Shown in pieces: positions 3,281 to 20,312 of a stretch of DNA of 29,585 nt. How positions within the stretch are numbered: position 1 is the first letter of the stretch; each line of letters starts with the position of its first letter. The DNA lies in IMG/VR virus record IMGVR_UViG_3300021963_000482, positions 1-29,585 of that record. One strand, 5' to 3'. The notes under the pieces are model-generated. The model ran no database searches. It saw only the letters and a program-made list of their open reading frames with translations, and was not told the DNA's origin. This stretch comes from a virus. Position numbers and translations under genes: made by a program.

Positions 3281-3604
3281 TCAAAGGTCATCAAGGTCAT
3301 CACTATGTGTGGTCAAGTCATCATTATGTGTGGTCATTGTTGGTCAAGGTGTTTGTTTTATTGTCAAGGTCATCAAGTTGTTAGGAAGTGGTCAAGCCTG
3401 GTCACCAGGTCAAGGTCATCAAGTTGTTAGGAAGTGCTAGGTCTATTTAGTGCTAAGTGCTTGGGCTGGGCTTGGTGTTGGGTCTTGGTCTTGGTCTTAG
3501 GTCTTGGGTCTTGGTCTCTTGTGCTGGGCTGGCTGGGGCTAGGTCTTAGGCTGGGCTAGGTCTTGGGCTAGGTGCTAGGTGCTAGGTCTTGGGCTGGGCT
3601 GGCT
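3281..3604 (+). repeat. degenerate tandem repeats (GGTCATCA / GGTCTTGG / GCTAGGT families)
   Basis: Short G+T-rich units follow one another. GTCATCA recurs several times at 3287-3330, a block of about 25 bases containing CAAGTTGTTAGGAAGT is present twice (3374-3389 and 3420-3435), and GCTAGGTGCTAGGT repeats near 3571-3590. The duplicated CAAGTTGTTAGGAAGT also resembles the 16-bp intergenic motif found elsewhere in the window (two to three mismatches). Confidence 0.75.
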
Positions 3605-6204: not shown

Positions 6205-6636
6205 CTAAGGCAGGATTTCTACTGCCGTGCCACTAAATAAAGCCTCAATCGTTGCTAAATCAGCACAATCTTTTGATTCTATTCGCTTGTCTTTTTGGAA
6301 CTCTTGTAGAGCAGAGCAAGTGTTCTCACCGAAGTAACCACTCTTCTCATCTCCTGCAGAGGAGTAACCAAGTTCCATCAGACGCTTCTGAACTGAGATG
6401 ACAGAGCGTGAATTGCGAGCGCTTCCGCAGCAAACAAGCGCAGCCATCTGGACATAAACACCAGAACCTTTGGCAGCTACGTTCGACTGATCGGAATTTT
6501 TACCCCTTTTAGCTTCAGGAGCTGCTGCAGCTACAGCTACAGCTTCTTGCTTCACAACAACTTCTGGTTCTGGGACAACAACAACCGCATCTACTTTTGG
6601 AACAATAGGTTCGGCTGGCTTGAATTCTTCTGACAT
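6205..6636 (-). CDS. peptidoglycan-binding-domain protein
   Basis: 143 residues from the ATG at 6636, preceded by AGGAAGG; the longer frame to 6705 would overlap the transglycosylase gene. Residues 1-60 are a low-complexity Ala/Val/Glu/Pro linker (VVVVPEPEVVVKQEAVAVAA). Residues 78-134 match a PG_binding_1 domain (SVISVQKRLMELGY, GYFGENTCSALQEFQ). It probably binds the host cell wall during lysis, either alone or working with the adjacent lytic enzyme; in other phages these two modules are fused, so this may be a split endolysin. It has no catalytic domain and no signal peptide. Confidence 0.8.
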   Translation of the reverse strand: MSEEFKPAEPIVPKVDAVVVVPEPEVVVKQEAVAVAAAAPEAKRGKNSDQSNVAAKGSGVYVQMAALVCCGSARNSRSVISVQKRLMELGYSSAGDEKSGYFGENTCSALQEFQKDKRIESKDCADLATIEALFSGTAVEILP

Positions 6637-6649
6637 ATAGGTTTCCTTC

Positions 6650-7318
6650 CTATTTTGATGGGAACTTAGCAACCCACGAATAAAGGTCACCAACTTTTCC
6701 ACCATTATAGGCGTTCTTGCCTACCCCCCAAGCGCCGAAATCTTCTCCTCCACCTGACATTAGGAAGGCAATCCGCGCATTGGCTACTGGGTTGAATAGT
6801 TCTTCGTTCGTTGTGAGACCGTATTTTTCACGGCGGTCTGCTCCGAGACCACCAATCATATTGATTTGGAATAATCCATAGGAGTTATCTCCTGTATCTG
6901 AGTTCCCGTTGTGTGAGGTAGGACCTCCACGAGACTCTCGCATCGCAATACCCCAAGCAAGTTTCAAGGCTTCTCCCTTGAATCCAACTGCTTTGAGAAG
7001 TTCTTTGAGTTCCTCAGGCTCCAATGGCGCTCGACGTTCCGCATACTTTGCAAGAACTGATGGGGCTGGAGGATTTGTAGTGACTGAAGCTGCCGTGAGT
7101 GAGTAGATTTTTACCCCTTTATCGACGCGATCAGGGATCACTACGTTCTTCTTTACTGTCGTTGATGTCGTTGTTGATGTATCTGCTACTGCTACTACAT
7201 TGGATTGGCTATCGTCTTTTCCAACTGCTTGTGCGACCGCAGCGCTGGCGCTCAATAGCACGAAAGCCATTGACAAACCGAACACTACTGTTTCTGCTTC
7301 GCGTTTAGAAATACGCAT
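6650..7318 (-). CDS. secreted lytic transglycosylase-like endolysin
   Basis: 222 residues. N-terminal signal peptide or anchor: RISKRE followed by VVFGLSMAFVLLSASAAVAQ (residues 11-30). A Ser/Thr-rich linker follows (40-95). The lysozyme-like domain (about 98-215) shows ALKLAWGIAMRESRGG with Glu128 as the likely catalytic acid, then SYGLFQINM (146-154) and KNAYNGG. This is the transglycosylase SLT/lysozyme-like fold that cuts the glycan backbone. The Sec signal implies export without a holin. AGGAGTAAC precedes the ATG. The next gene begins 14 bases after its stop. The motif GGGGTAAAAA lies inside it (7108-7117), read as GVKI. Confidence 0.83.
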   Translation of the reverse strand: MRISKREAETVVFGLSMAFVLLSASAAVAQAVGKDDSQSNVVAVADTSTTTSTTVKKNVVIPDRVDKGVKIYSLTAASVTTNPPAPSVLAKYAERRAPLEPEELKELLKAVGFKGEALKLAWGIAMRESRGGPTSHNGNSDTGDNSYGLFQINMIGGLGADRREKYGLTTNEELFNPVANARIAFLMSGGGEDFGAWGVGKNAYNGGKVGDLYSWVAKFPSK

Positions 7319-10186: not shown

Positions 10187-10750
10187 TCAGAAACTCTGGG
10201 TCAAGAGATAAACAGGCTCACCTGAGTTGGGGTCAAGACGGCAAGCGATGGCGACCGCGTTCTTTGCGCTGCTGCGTGCGTGGGACATCGTTCTTTTTTT
10301 ACCCTCTGAAGCTTGATACATCGCACCTAAAGCGTAGTCAGCCCCAGTTCCCAGAGCGTGAAAGCCTCTTTCTTCGTGACACCAATCGTAGCCAGAGCCA
10401 ATTTCATAGATGGTTCCGTGAATAATTACAAGGACATTGGAGTCTTGCTCACCTTTTTCTCCGTATTGGGCTTGGTCAAAGCACTCTTTGAGAGCAGGTA
10501 TGAACTTAGAGGAGATGAACTTATCCAGTTTGATGCCAACATCGGTAGAAGCAGGTAGAGGTGGTTTGAGTGTGTGCGCCAAAAGGTTCACGGCACGCAT
10601 ATCCCCGGCCGCACCTAAAATGTATTGACCATTACGAACAACTTTTCCAGCATCTTTTGGCAGGATAAAGGAACGATTGTCTTCGCAGACGCGGGAATCA
10701 TAGGCAACAACAGCCCAGCCTTCCCCTTGTATCGCAGCAATCGTAGTCAT
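10187..10750 (-). CDS. HslV/proteasome-like Ntn-hydrolase
   Basis: 187 residues. Removal of Met exposes the N-terminal Thr of TTIAAIQGEGWAVVAYDSR, matching the start of HslV and proteasome beta subunits: Thr1 nucleophile, Asp17 in AYDSR, and Lys35 in KDAGKVV near the catalytic Lys33 of HslV. The GxxGD loop appears as GAAGDMRAV (49-57). A C-terminal ALGTGADYALGAMYQA fits the rest of the fold. Predicted to assemble into a cytoplasmic peptidase ring; no partner unfoldase such as HslU is adjacent, the AAA+ protein at 19269 being MoxR-type. GGGAGA precedes the ATG. The substrate is unknown; possibly host protein turnover. It contains an internal GGGTAAAAAA motif (10296-10304). Confidence 0.8.
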   Translation of the reverse strand: MTTIAAIQGEGWAVVAYDSRVCEDNRSFILPKDAGKVVRNGQYILGAAGDMRAVNLLAHTLKPPLPASTDVGIKLDKFISSKFIPALKECFDQAQYGEKGEQDSNVLVIIHGTIYEIGSGYDWCHEERGFHALGTGADYALGAMYQASEGKKRTMSHARSSAKNAVAIACRLDPNSGEPVYLLTQSF

Positions 10751-10812
10751 TGCGTTCTATCTCCCTTGTTCACGCAGCGATGGGCCTGGTTACCAGGCTA
10801 AAATTTTTACCC

Positions 10813-11061
10813 TTAGTCTTCCCACAGCAGATCTCGAAGAAGGTCTTCGTGACGATCAGCGTGATGGGAATTGTTCTTCACCGAAATATCTTCAGAGTCA
10901 ATCAGTCTGTCTAACGACAACACCGCAATGTGCCCTAACTCCTCAAACATAATAACAAGTTTGGTTTCTCCGTCATTTGGGTCGTCAATGATGGCGGCGA
11001 CAAAAGGCGCGGCAGAGCCATTTTGGTGGAACTCTTTATCAACTATTCCGGGTATCAACAT
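10813..11061 (-). CDS. hypothetical protein
   Basis: 82 residues, acidic, no known domain. It begins MLIPGIVDKEFHQNGSAAPF and has a strand-like centre (KLVIMFEELGHIAVLSLD) and a charged C-terminus rich in His and Asp (HHADRHEDLLRDLLWED). No clear ribosome-binding site precedes the ATG and no promoter was seen, so the start is less sure. A GGGTAAAAAT motif follows the stop directly (10804-10812). Function unknown. Confidence 0.6.
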   Translation of the reverse strand: MLIPGIVDKEFHQNGSAAPFVAAIIDDPNDGETKLVIMFEELGHIAVLSLDRLIDSEDISVKNNSHHADRHEDLLRDLLWED

Positions 11062-17272: not shown

Positions 17273-19054
17273 TCAGGCTACGCGCCTTCCCACATTTGTC
17301 AGCACCCCTGCTGCTGCACTCCCTATTTGTGAGGCTGCTGCCGTAGGGTCTAGCAAATCACTAACAACAATCGCGTTGCCGTGTTTTGCTATCTCCCTAG
17401 CATAGTGCCCCCCATCAAAAGGAAGCCACAAAATCGCCACTCCTGCTTCGGTGCATCGCGTAACCCACTTGCGAGCCTTCTGCACTTCTTCGTGGGTGTA
17501 TTGACCATCTGACACGATTACGAGAAGCCTTGCCCCTGTTCCGTTCAGTAGATTTAGTCCACCATCAAGTGCGCGAAAAGCCTTGTCAAACTTTTCGGTG
17601 TGGTCGTTTGCAGAATAAACTTTGACATCTTCTAAGTGTTGCCCTGCTTTGAGAGTAGGGAAAACATCTGAGCCGTAATAAACCATCGCGCATTTGCCCT
17701 GCACTCTGCGAGTTGCTTCAGACATAACCCACGCAGTTGTCGCCATTGGTTGCATCGCAGAACCCATAGAGCCTGAGATGTCTACCATCACTCCAACTGT
17801 AAGTGTTGGGTCGTCTGTGTGCTTACGAACTGTTCTGCGCCACGCTTCAGTTTGTTGGCGAACTCCACGCTCTTTGAGAGCAGCACCTTGCACTAATGCG
17901 CGAGTGCGTAATCTTCCGGGAGGAGTAACGCTAGTAATTTCCATTTCATCGCGCTCGCGATACTTTGCCTTCTCTAATTGTTGAGCAACAGTTACGGCAG
18001 CAATTCTTTCTTGTGCAGTTGGCTTACGAGTTTCAGTAAGACGAGAAGATGTTTTTCCACCTGACTCGGAAGTGTTCTTTGCAAAAACTTGCGATGCAAC
18101 TTCTTTATTGTCGCTCTGTTCTTTTGCAGAGTCTTGCTTTGACTTGACTTCTTCTTTCCACTCTTCATCTGTCTGCTGGTCTGCAAGTTCATCGCTATTA
18201 GCAATAGAAACTCTTACACCTGCTTCTTCCAATGCTTCCATTATCTCTTCTAAGAACTCTGAAGAAACACCTTCTCCTGAACCTTCTTCAGGTGTGTCTC
18301 CCTTTTCTTCGGCAACTTCGCGAACTAACTTCGCCCACTCTTTTGCCAATTCATAAAGAGGTTCTGCATTTGAGTGAAGAGTGTGTGCCTGAACTTTGCG
18401 AGCAATCTCGCGCAACTTCGCAACAACTTCTGCACTTAGGTAATCCTGAACTAAATCCATCAAGTCTGAAACTTCGTATGGGTCTAGCACTCCTGCATCA
18501 ACGCGAGCGTGAACTGTGGCAACTAGAAACGCTGCACTCTTTGTATTAGATGAACTAGCAAACTTTTCTTTGCTATCGCTAATTACCAAGTCCATAGCGC
18601 AAGCGCGTAGGAACACAAGTGCATCAGGCATCTCGCGTAATCCTTGTGCCTCAATGCGAGACTCTTCTAGTAGCACCAATGCTTCGTGTTCATCTTTTGC
18701 GAGCGCCTTGTATGCCTTCTCTAAATCCCATTGAGAAAACTTTGCGTGGAAGGCTTCGTGCATAATTGCACCTGTCGCCTTAGGGAAATCGTATTGTTGC
18801 TTCCTGTCAGTAAGGTCTCCAACCATCGCAGGTGAAACCATCTTGCCAAAAGCAATCGCAGTATCAACTTCTATTTCTGCAAGTGATGGGTTGTAGCAAG
18901 CAGGTGCGCCGTGTCCTGCATTTGTTCCTACATAACCAACTAGGTCGTAACGACCACTCCACTTGTTAGCAAGTTCTCCAACTGCCTTACCAACTCCTAG
19001 CCACTCGGCAGGAGTTTTCTCTGCGCGAGTTGCGCTATTACTTAGATGAGCCAT
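17273..19054 (-). CDS. VWA-domain protein with N-terminal metallopeptidase-like domain (DUF2201/CobT-like)
   Basis: 593 residues. The N-terminal domain has HEAFH (99-103), an HExxH zinc motif, with LLEESRIE (128-135) as a possible third ligand region; this fits the metallopeptidase-like domain of DUF2201 proteins. A charged, low-complexity middle (245-345) follows. The C-terminal VWA domain has the MIDAS motif DISGSMGS (425-432), Thr/Asp positions downstream and LLVIVSDGQY (510-519). VWA proteins of this type act with MoxR-family AAA+ ATPases, here encoded upstream at 19269. The pair likely remodels or metallates a target protein; which one is unknown. It has its own promoter (19105-19133) and AAGGAAAG before the ATG. 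It contains no GGGTAAAAAT motif, unlike its neighbours. Confidence 0.8.
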   Translation of the reverse strand: MAHLSNSATRAEKTPAEWLGVGKAVGELANKWSGRYDLVGYVGTNAGHGAPACYNPSLAEIEVDTAIAFGKMVSPAMVGDLTDRKQQYDFPKATGAIMHEAFHAKFSQWDLEKAYKALAKDEHEALVLLEESRIEAQGLREMPDALVFLRACAMDLVISDSKEKFASSSNTKSAAFLVATVHARVDAGVLDPYEVSDLMDLVQDYLSAEVVAKLREIARKVQAHTLHSNAEPLYELAKEWAKLVREVAEEKGDTPEEGSGEGVSSEFLEEIMEALEEAGVRVSIANSDELADQQTDEEWKEEVKSKQDSAKEQSDNKEVASQVFAKNTSESGGKTSSRLTETRKPTAQERIAAVTVAQQLEKAKYRERDEMEITSVTPPGRLRTRALVQGAALKERGVRQQTEAWRRTVRKHTDDPTLTVGVMVDISGSMGSAMQPMATTAWVMSEATRRVQGKCAMVYYGSDVFPTLKAGQHLEDVKVYSANDHTEKFDKAFRALDGGLNLLNGTGARLLVIVSDGQYTHEEVQKARKWVTRCTEAGVAILWLPFDGGHYAREIAKHGNAIVVSDLLDPTAAASQIGSAAAGVLTNVGRRVA

Positions 19055-19104
19055 TTGTCTTTCCTTCCATTTGTCGTTTGTCTCTGTGTCCTAGAGATAG
19101 TTCT

Positions 19105-19133
19105 ATCATAGAGCATCTTTGGGTGAGATGCAA
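19105..19133 (-). promoter_or_regulatory. promoter upstream of 19054
   Basis: TTGCAT (19128-19133), spacer CTCACCCAAAGATGCTC, TATGAT (19105-19110) on the minus strand, with the CTCTATGATAGAA context shared with the promoters at 20824 and 24923. Confidence 0.78.
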
Positions 19134-19185
19134 CTTCTATGACTTATTTGTTTCTGCGTGTTTTTAGCTTCTTTTTCCTACAAAC

Positions 19186-19236
19186 CCTTTTGGGGTAGCA
19201 GGGGGGCGCGACACCCAATGAAGCGCCCACCCTGCC
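19186..19236 (-). terminator. probable terminator of 19269
   Basis: GCAGGGTGGGCGC pairs with GCGCCCCCCTGC (one bulge), followed on the minus strand by a second small stem (ACCCC AAAA GGGT). No long T-run directly after the main stem. Confidence 0.5.
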
Positions 19237-19268
19237 TTTTCCAACCAAGACTTAGCCACAGGGAGTAA

Positions 19269-20312
19269 CTAAATCTTGGCAGGCTTGCACTCGTCTCCAT
19301 AAACGCGAGTTAGAACATCAGACACCATTGGTCTGTCTAACTCAGGTGAAGCAGCGAGAAGATTTGAGATTGCGAAAGGAGTTCCGAAAGTTTCCGCGAT
19401 GTCGCGAAACGCTAAGAGTTCGCGCATTTGTGGAGACCAAGAAACTTCTCTTGCAACTTGCTTCTTAGCAAGATTTTGTGCAGCAGTTACCAACGGAACA
19501 GGAACACCCATCTTGCGAGCGAGCGACCAATCAGTTGTCATTTCTGCGTGAATAGTGAAGCGAGATAACAATGCTTCAGAGAGACGAACTCCCGGAGCAT
19601 TTGGGTTTGTCGCAGCGACTACGAAAAAGTTTGGGTGAGCCTTTACAACTCCACGCTCAGGGTTTGCAGTTACAGAAAGTTCTCTGCGTCCGTCCATCAA
19701 ACCATAAACAACTGAAAGAACCTTAGGGTCAATCAAACCAATTTCGTCAATGAAATAAACGCTACCTGTTTCGGCAGCCTTTACTAAATCTCCATCTATC
19801 CACTCAAAACCACCTGAGAGATTTTGCACATAGCCACCAACTAAATCTGCGACTTCTGTATCTCCTGTTCCCATAAGTGTAAAGATGTCGTCAAAAGCAG
19901 CCTCTACGAGTGCAGTTTTTCCACACCCCGGAGCGCCATAGAGAAGAGCGAACATTGGAGAACCCTCTTTACCTGCGAACACAGTTGCAGTTGCTTCACG
20001 CGCTTTGCGTAGCGTTAGAACATCTGAGTGCATACCCCACTTGCGTGAGAAATAGTTAGCACCATTGGGGCGAACATAAGCCTCTTCGCCTTCCATACCT
20101 TCCACATTTACTGCGCTCTCTGCAACCTTTGACTTTCGTGGCGCTCTCGCTGCTCCACTTGCGCGAGCAACATAGCGACCTGAAGGTGCTACTTTTGCAT
20201 TGAGTGTTAGTGAAGAGTCGCTATTGACTCCTTGACTCAAAACATCTATGACGCTTTCCCAAAAGCCTGCGCCAATGTCTGAGTATTTTTCTTTCATTGT
20301 TTCTGTCGTCAT
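19269..20312 (-). CDS. MoxR-family AAA+ ATPase
   Basis: 347 residues. Residues 1-85 are a variable N-terminus. The AAA+ core has Walker A GAPGCGKT (126-133), Walker B SVYFIDE (184-190), a sensor-1 region VVAATNPN (231-238) and the SRF arginine (251) expected of MoxR/CobS/AAA_5 ATPases. It probably forms a ring that works with the VWA protein encoded just downstream, as CobS works with CobT or MoxR with its VWA partner. GGGAGAAAAAA precedes the ATG. It is likely co-transcribed with 20337 (24-base gap, no promoter between). Confidence 0.88.
   Translation of the reverse strand: MTTETMKEKYSDIGAGFWESVIDVLSQGVNSDSSLTLNAKVAPSGRYVARASGAARAPRKSKVAESAVNVEGMEGEEAYVRPNGANYFSRKWGMHSDVLTLRKAREATATVFAGKEGSPMFALLYGAPGCGKTALVEAAFDDIFTLMGTGDTEVADLVGGYVQNLSGGFEWIDGDLVKAAETGSVYFIDEIGLIDPKVLSVVYGLMDGRRELSVTANPERGVVKAHPNFFVVAATNPNAPGVRLSEALLSRFTIHAEMTTDWSLARKMGVPVPLVTAAQNLAKKQVAREVSWSPQMRELLAFRDIAETFGTPFAISNLLAASPELDRPMVSDVLTRVYGDECKPAKI

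Follow-up and report, generated by a model that had tools for sequence, protein, structure and literature searches.

A probable HslV/BPH-like threonine peptidase of the proteasome type in a likely actinophage

Proteasome-type enzymes in phages are an already published family and not a new phenomenon. Fuchs et al. 2021 (PMC8665760) described the homologs AAH and PPH from phages, neither of which has an AAA+ partner, and no actinophage AAH was found in that survey. According to the same study, not every proteasome homolog is an oligomeric protease: some are monomers with another activity, and connectase is a ligase. The beta-proteobacteria proteasome homolog BPH (PDB 5ovs/5ovt/5ovu) is a tetradecamer which binds epoxomicin at Thr1 and for which no unfoldase is known; model substrates were not cleaved by it in vitro, and an unknown cofactor or a narrow specificity was proposed by its authors (PMC5777263).

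A gene related to these systems was investigated in a 29,585-bp virus record from IMG/VR, the whole of which is called the window in the following (Table 1). With a probability of about 0.6, it encodes a threonine peptidase of the HslV/BPH-like group I, as defined by Fuchs et al. 2021 (PMC8665760), which belongs to an actinophage subfamily and acts as an accessory, ATP-independent ring with a narrow substrate range.

Table 1 Peptidase gene, its upstream neighbour and the MoxR/VWA genes in the window
Feature	Position	Strand	Remarks
Peptidase gene	10187..10750	-	Proteasome-type (group I) Ntn-hydrolase, 187 aa; catalytic residues conserved, Ntn fold predicted
Ribosome-binding site of the peptidase	10751..10770	-	AAGGGAGAT, 5' of the start codon, read from the sequence
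Small acidic protein	10813..11061	-	82 aa, pI 4.45; in most close relatives the gene immediately 5' of the peptidase; candidate partner
VWA-domain protein	17273..19054	-	VWA_CoxE, weak match; beside MoxR; annotated 'cobalamin biosynthesis' in DSL-LC01
MoxR-type AAA+ ATPase (AAA_5)	19269..20312	-	E=7.5e-21; about 8.5 kb upstream of the peptidase

Active site and fold of the peptidase

A phage-encoded HslV/proteasome-like peptidase had originally been predicted for this gene, with its limits given and its strand left out. The limits correspond to an exact open reading frame on the minus strand; on the plus strand stop codons interrupt the region. The protein starts with Met-Thr-Thr-Ile, hence Thr1 is residue 2 and there is no propeptide. 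Numbered from Thr1, Asp17 (D18), Lys35 (K36) and the oxyanion-hole Gly48 (G49, within GAAGD) are present, as are a G-S/T-G motif (134-136) and a downstream aspartate (D173). When the window protein was aligned with 95 homologs (71 distinct sequences), Thr1 and Lys35 occurred in all 71, Asp17 in 70 (one Glu) and Gly48 likewise in 70. The Thr-Thr-Ile start, Asp17, Lys35 and GAAGD, on which the original prediction was built, are all present, and the loss of Thr1 or Lys in relatives, named there as a ground for rejection, was not observed. With a Thr1 exposed after Met, Asp17, a lysine in the range 33-37 and the oxyanion glycine, the protein belongs to the proteasome-like Ntn-hydrolases (MEROPS T1-type). 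The gene is under purifying selection, since pN/pS was 0.11-0.29 against six relatives. A purine-rich site similar to its ribosome-binding site was seen 5' of most homologs inspected.

With the Pfam family Proteasome only a sub-threshold match was obtained (E=0.088). PHROG 1040 ("peptidase HslV family") matched residues 1-184 with E=4e-27, and a profile of 14 relatives searched against PDB sequences detected BPH (5ovu, E=2e-13), HslV (4e-13) and proteasome beta5 (3e-11), with Thr2 of the query paired with the mature Thr1. The AlphaFold monomer model, built with 33 sequences, reached a pLDDT of 92.9 and a pTM of 0.89. It contains the four-layer alpha-beta-beta-alpha sandwich of Ntn-hydrolases, so the structure prediction that had been proposed as a check gave the fold expected. 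The top Foldseek match was BPH (5ovs/5ovt; E about 1e-12, TM 0.74-0.80), followed by HslV and 20S beta; TM by query length was 0.61-0.78 for BPH, HslV and 20S. On the results for PHROG 1040, the PDB profile search, AlphaFold and Foldseek, the match is above chance. Matches to alphaRep proteins in a single-sequence PDB search were discarded as repeat-driven chance matches.

A ring-shaped peptidase is not the only function conceivable for this active site. The connectase precedent (PMC8665760) makes a ligase or a single-substrate processing enzyme possible, in which a Thr1 acyl-enzyme would serve a single-target transferase/ligase or processing reaction and not degradation in a compartment. The lack of an unfoldase and the inertness of BPH on general substrates (PMC5777263) are consistent with such a role. 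However, no connectase-like helical insertion between S3 and S4 is predicted, strands 20-23 and 26-29 being joined by a short turn, and ring-forming peptidases are the best fold matches. We consider this function improbable.

For the favoured peptidase, the following course may be envisaged. A host methionine aminopeptidase would remove Met1 and free Thr1, and the nucleophile would be activated by Lys35/Asp17, as judged from the biochemistry of HslV and BPH. The subunits would form a homo-oligomeric double ring with the active sites inside, like HslV and BPH. Having no ATPase of its own, such a ring may, in the infected cell, cleave a narrow set of proteins of the host or the phage that are unfolded or delivered by an adaptor. 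By analogy, the need for a cofactor or the narrow specificity proposed for BPH likely applies to the phage peptidase, too.

Relationship to described proteasome homologs

Of the original name, the proteasome-type fold and active site hold, but the protein is not HslV itself. It scored 20.1 and 21.3 bits with the HslV equivalog models TIGR03692 and NF003964, whose cut-offs are 157.75 and 137 bits, and 11.6 bits with the model of the 20S proteasome beta subunit PrcB (TIGR03690; cut-off 191.9 bits). Because these scores are far below the cut-offs, the protein is neither HslV nor 20S; a further argument against HslV proper is that no HslU was detected in the window and 22 related records, most of them fragments. 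With HslV (ClpQ) it shares the fold and the Thr1/Asp17/Lys catalytic set, but only about 20% identity. BPH, the best solved structural match, has the same catalytic residues and no known unfoldase; the differences are an identity of about 20%, a lysine at position 37 and a long, acidic pore loop in BPH. Like PPH, the peptidase is phage-borne and without an AAA+ partner. In contrast, PPH is shorter, with about 140 residues, and has no helix H2, whereas the window protein has 187 aa and a predicted long second helix. Thus, PPH identity was rejected on the length and on the helices at residues 51-60 and 72-93 of the AlphaFold model.

The members of PHROG 1040 have the same length class and active site as the window protein. 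They include the actinophages DSL-LC01, Pumpernickel, LeeroyJenkins and Pitbull, the T5-like phage Eps7 and Geobacillus phage E3. DSL-LC01, the closest named phage, is the only close one (44% identity); the others share 24-34%.

The closest bacterial sequences found were plasmid proteins of Rhizobium, Mesorhizobium and Streptomyces, mostly annotated as hypothetical. Bacterial kin of the peptidase come from the taxa that define AAH (PMC8665760) and are likened to AAH by this taxonomy; they carry Lys33, the window protein Lys35. A profile of the window clade scored the AAH-like bacterial proteins with 66-71 bits, compared with 45 for BPH and 33-38 for HslV, and a profile-profile comparison with them gave E=8e-28. 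In the tree, these bacterial proteins formed a separate clade with the T5-like and Geobacillus phage homologs (99/98; some branches long), and they read FTSS where the window clade reads GAAGD. From the separate clade, the FTSS/GAAGD difference and the equivalog and profile scores, the window clade would seem to be a sister group within group I that is peculiar to actinophages. Judged by the alignment, the actinophage subfamily keeps the oxyanion glycine, unlike the PPH/AAH-like sequences examined. Among the plasmid proteins are uncharacterised proteasome-type hydrolases, annotated as hypothetical, at three loci (L183, L184, L185); the plasmids are rhizobial or, in Streptomyces, linear.

Distribution, hosts and unfoldase candidates

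Relatives of the peptidase are encoded in at least 578 viral contigs. Among 84,980 bacterial and archaeal species genomes, one contig with a relative was found (L099, JAURLY010000091.1), in a MAG labelled "Gammaproteobacteria". Its peptidase is of the actinophage type and lies close to a WhiB gene, for which reason it is probably a misbinned actinophage contig. The subfamily is phage-borne, as shown by these counts and by the WhiB gene on the single genome contig. A WhiB gene also adjoins the peptidase of DSL-LC01, for which Actinomycetia were predicted as hosts (PMC10611076). From both WhiB genes and this host prediction we infer that the window phage probably infects an actinobacterium. So far, the subfamily has been found almost exclusively in phages that likely infect actinobacteria, and among these it is widespread.

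In named phages the peptidase is often located near genes of nucleotide metabolism and replication (DHFR, ThyA/ThyX, MazG, ligase, RNR). Because such genes are nearby in several unrelated phages, a non-structural, early or middle role is suggested. Other neighbours were noted as well. In another peptidase clade (L060, L062, L099 and similar), the peptidase is immediately preceded by a gene of about 400 aa in 12 of 26 loci, and the product of this gene in L099 resembles calcineurin-like metallophosphoesterases. In Ochrobactrum phage OC an annotated Ser/Thr phosphatase follows directly 3' of the peptidase. In the window, adjacent genes for a peptidoglycan-binding protein and an SLT lysozyme-like protein (6205-7318, minus strand) are conserved in related phages and probably constitute a lysis pair.

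The original prediction had stated that no HslU or Mpa partner is adjacent and had advised a search of the remaining genome for an unfoldase. The first point was borne out and the search was negative: the HslU/ClpX-type AAA_2 domain (PF07724) was detected in none of 23 records (the window and 22 related ones), which include the complete 129-kb genome of phage DSL-LC01; most of the others are fragments. In keeping with this result, no AAA+ partner was found for AAH or PPH, either (PMC8665760).

The nearest AAA+ gene is of the MoxR type, as had been predicted, and together with its VWA partner it might be thought to supply the unfoldase. MoxR homologs occur in 19 of the 23 peptidase-bearing records, and in the compared loci they are situated about 8-10 kb from the peptidase on the same strand. 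However, the conserved neighbour of MoxR is the VWA gene (adjacent in 11 of 11 related loci) and not the peptidase. Gordonia phages carry MoxR without a peptidase match, MoxR is kept at about 70% identity in three of five peptidase-less contigs tested, and it is absent from the peptidase-bearing records G018 and G019. Since each gene occurs without the other, MoxR was rejected as an obligate or dedicated unfoldase, and it is scarcely credible as an unfoldase for the peptidase at all. The MoxR/VWA pair (17273-20312, minus strand) shows a CobS/CobT-like arrangement, and the AAA+ gene is also present in Gordonia and Microbacterium phages.

In G018, a record without MoxR, a 542-aa AAA/AAA_lid_3 ATPase is encoded about 10 kb upstream of the peptidase homolog (L192, 807-2435). 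A match of comparable strength was found in none of the other records, and this classical AAA+ protein was set aside as a partner.

A host AAA+ protein could be the partner of the peptidase. Actinobacteria often possess a 20S system of their own, and with probably actinobacterial hosts (the WhiB genes beside the peptidase in DSL-LC01 and L099, and the host predicted for DSL-LC01, PMC10611076) the phage enzyme might use a host unfoldase or subvert the host proteasome. Against this stands that Actinobacteria are not listed for HslV, and thus HslU, in Table 1 of PMC8665760. We regard such a dependence as very unlikely.

The small upstream gene and the probable accessory role

The protein encoded directly upstream gave no Pfam, PHROG or significant PDB-fold match. 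A four-stranded sheet with a C-terminal helix is predicted for it (pLDDT 81). In actinobacteria pup is located upstream of prcB. This analogy was rejected for the small gene, because its product has no C-terminal GG motif and a predicted beta-sheet plus helix; Pup was taken to be disordered, about 64 aa long and to end in GGQ/GGE.

Of 96 peptidase loci, 59 have the small gene in the 2.6 kb upstream of the peptidase, in most cases as the immediate neighbour, and in L011-L014 both genes overlap by 4 nt. When only the small gene was used as the query, a peptidase was detected downstream on the same strand in 71 of 80 loci, and in 38 of 47 loci if only contigs not reached through the peptidase are counted. 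Furthermore, the small protein ends with an LRxxLW motif that hardly varies among peptidase carriers but is altered in a clade without the peptidase. Together with the inertness of BPH and the cofactor proposed for it (PMC5777263), these data would fit a module of two genes, with the small protein as the cofactor (activator, gate-opener or adaptor) or the dedicated substrate or inhibitor of an otherwise latent ring. On the other hand, many peptidases occur without the small gene, and other neighbouring pairs are equally conserved (11/11, 12/12 and 10/10 adjacent, compared with 17/20 for small gene and peptidase). The linkage is suggestive, not exceptional.

The clade without the peptidase comprises nine contigs (L110-L112, L117, L120, L121, L124, L127, L135; e.g. 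L110/G022) with the same surrounding genes. In the MoxR protein tree it is nested among carriers (93/95, a moderately supported fork); on this basis the peptidase was probably lost there. The small gene is retained in this clade under purifying selection (pN/pS about 0.1). LRxxLW changed only once, and this change may simply be a scar left at the deletion junction. The control with neighbouring pairs and the retention without peptidase weaken a strong functional linkage of the small gene. A module of both genes is thus possible but rather unlikely, and it is doubtful that an ATPase-free ring is switched on, gated or fed with substrate by the small acidic protein. If this were true, the small protein would be the cofactor that has been postulated for enzymes like BPH.

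Between the small gene and the peptidase, the palindrome CCTGGTAACCAGG was noticed at 10785-10797; among the relatives inspected it is kept in L002-L005 only. A palindrome CCTGGTCACCAGG is located at 3397-3409. As a meaningful site CCTGGTAACCAGG was dismissed, since it is limited to the closest relatives and the motif with mismatches is no commoner than chance.

The ATP-independent peptidase ring favoured here is apparently accessory and not essential, because one nested phage clade seems to have lost it. PADLOC gave no match for the peptidase or the small protein, and no result points in particular to counter-defence, which had been considered among the possible functions beside degradation of host proteins and processing of phage proteins.

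In general, the original prediction correctly recognised a genuine and conserved enzyme, of a kind that had been described from phages before. As a discovery it is ordinary; of moderate interest are its actinophage subfamily and the neighbour gene, which can be tested. BPH, AAH and PPH are unfoldase-free homologs without known substrates or activators. The family presented here offers phage genomes, a defined neighbour gene and close relatives lacking the peptidase, and thus the questions of substrate and cofactor become testable.
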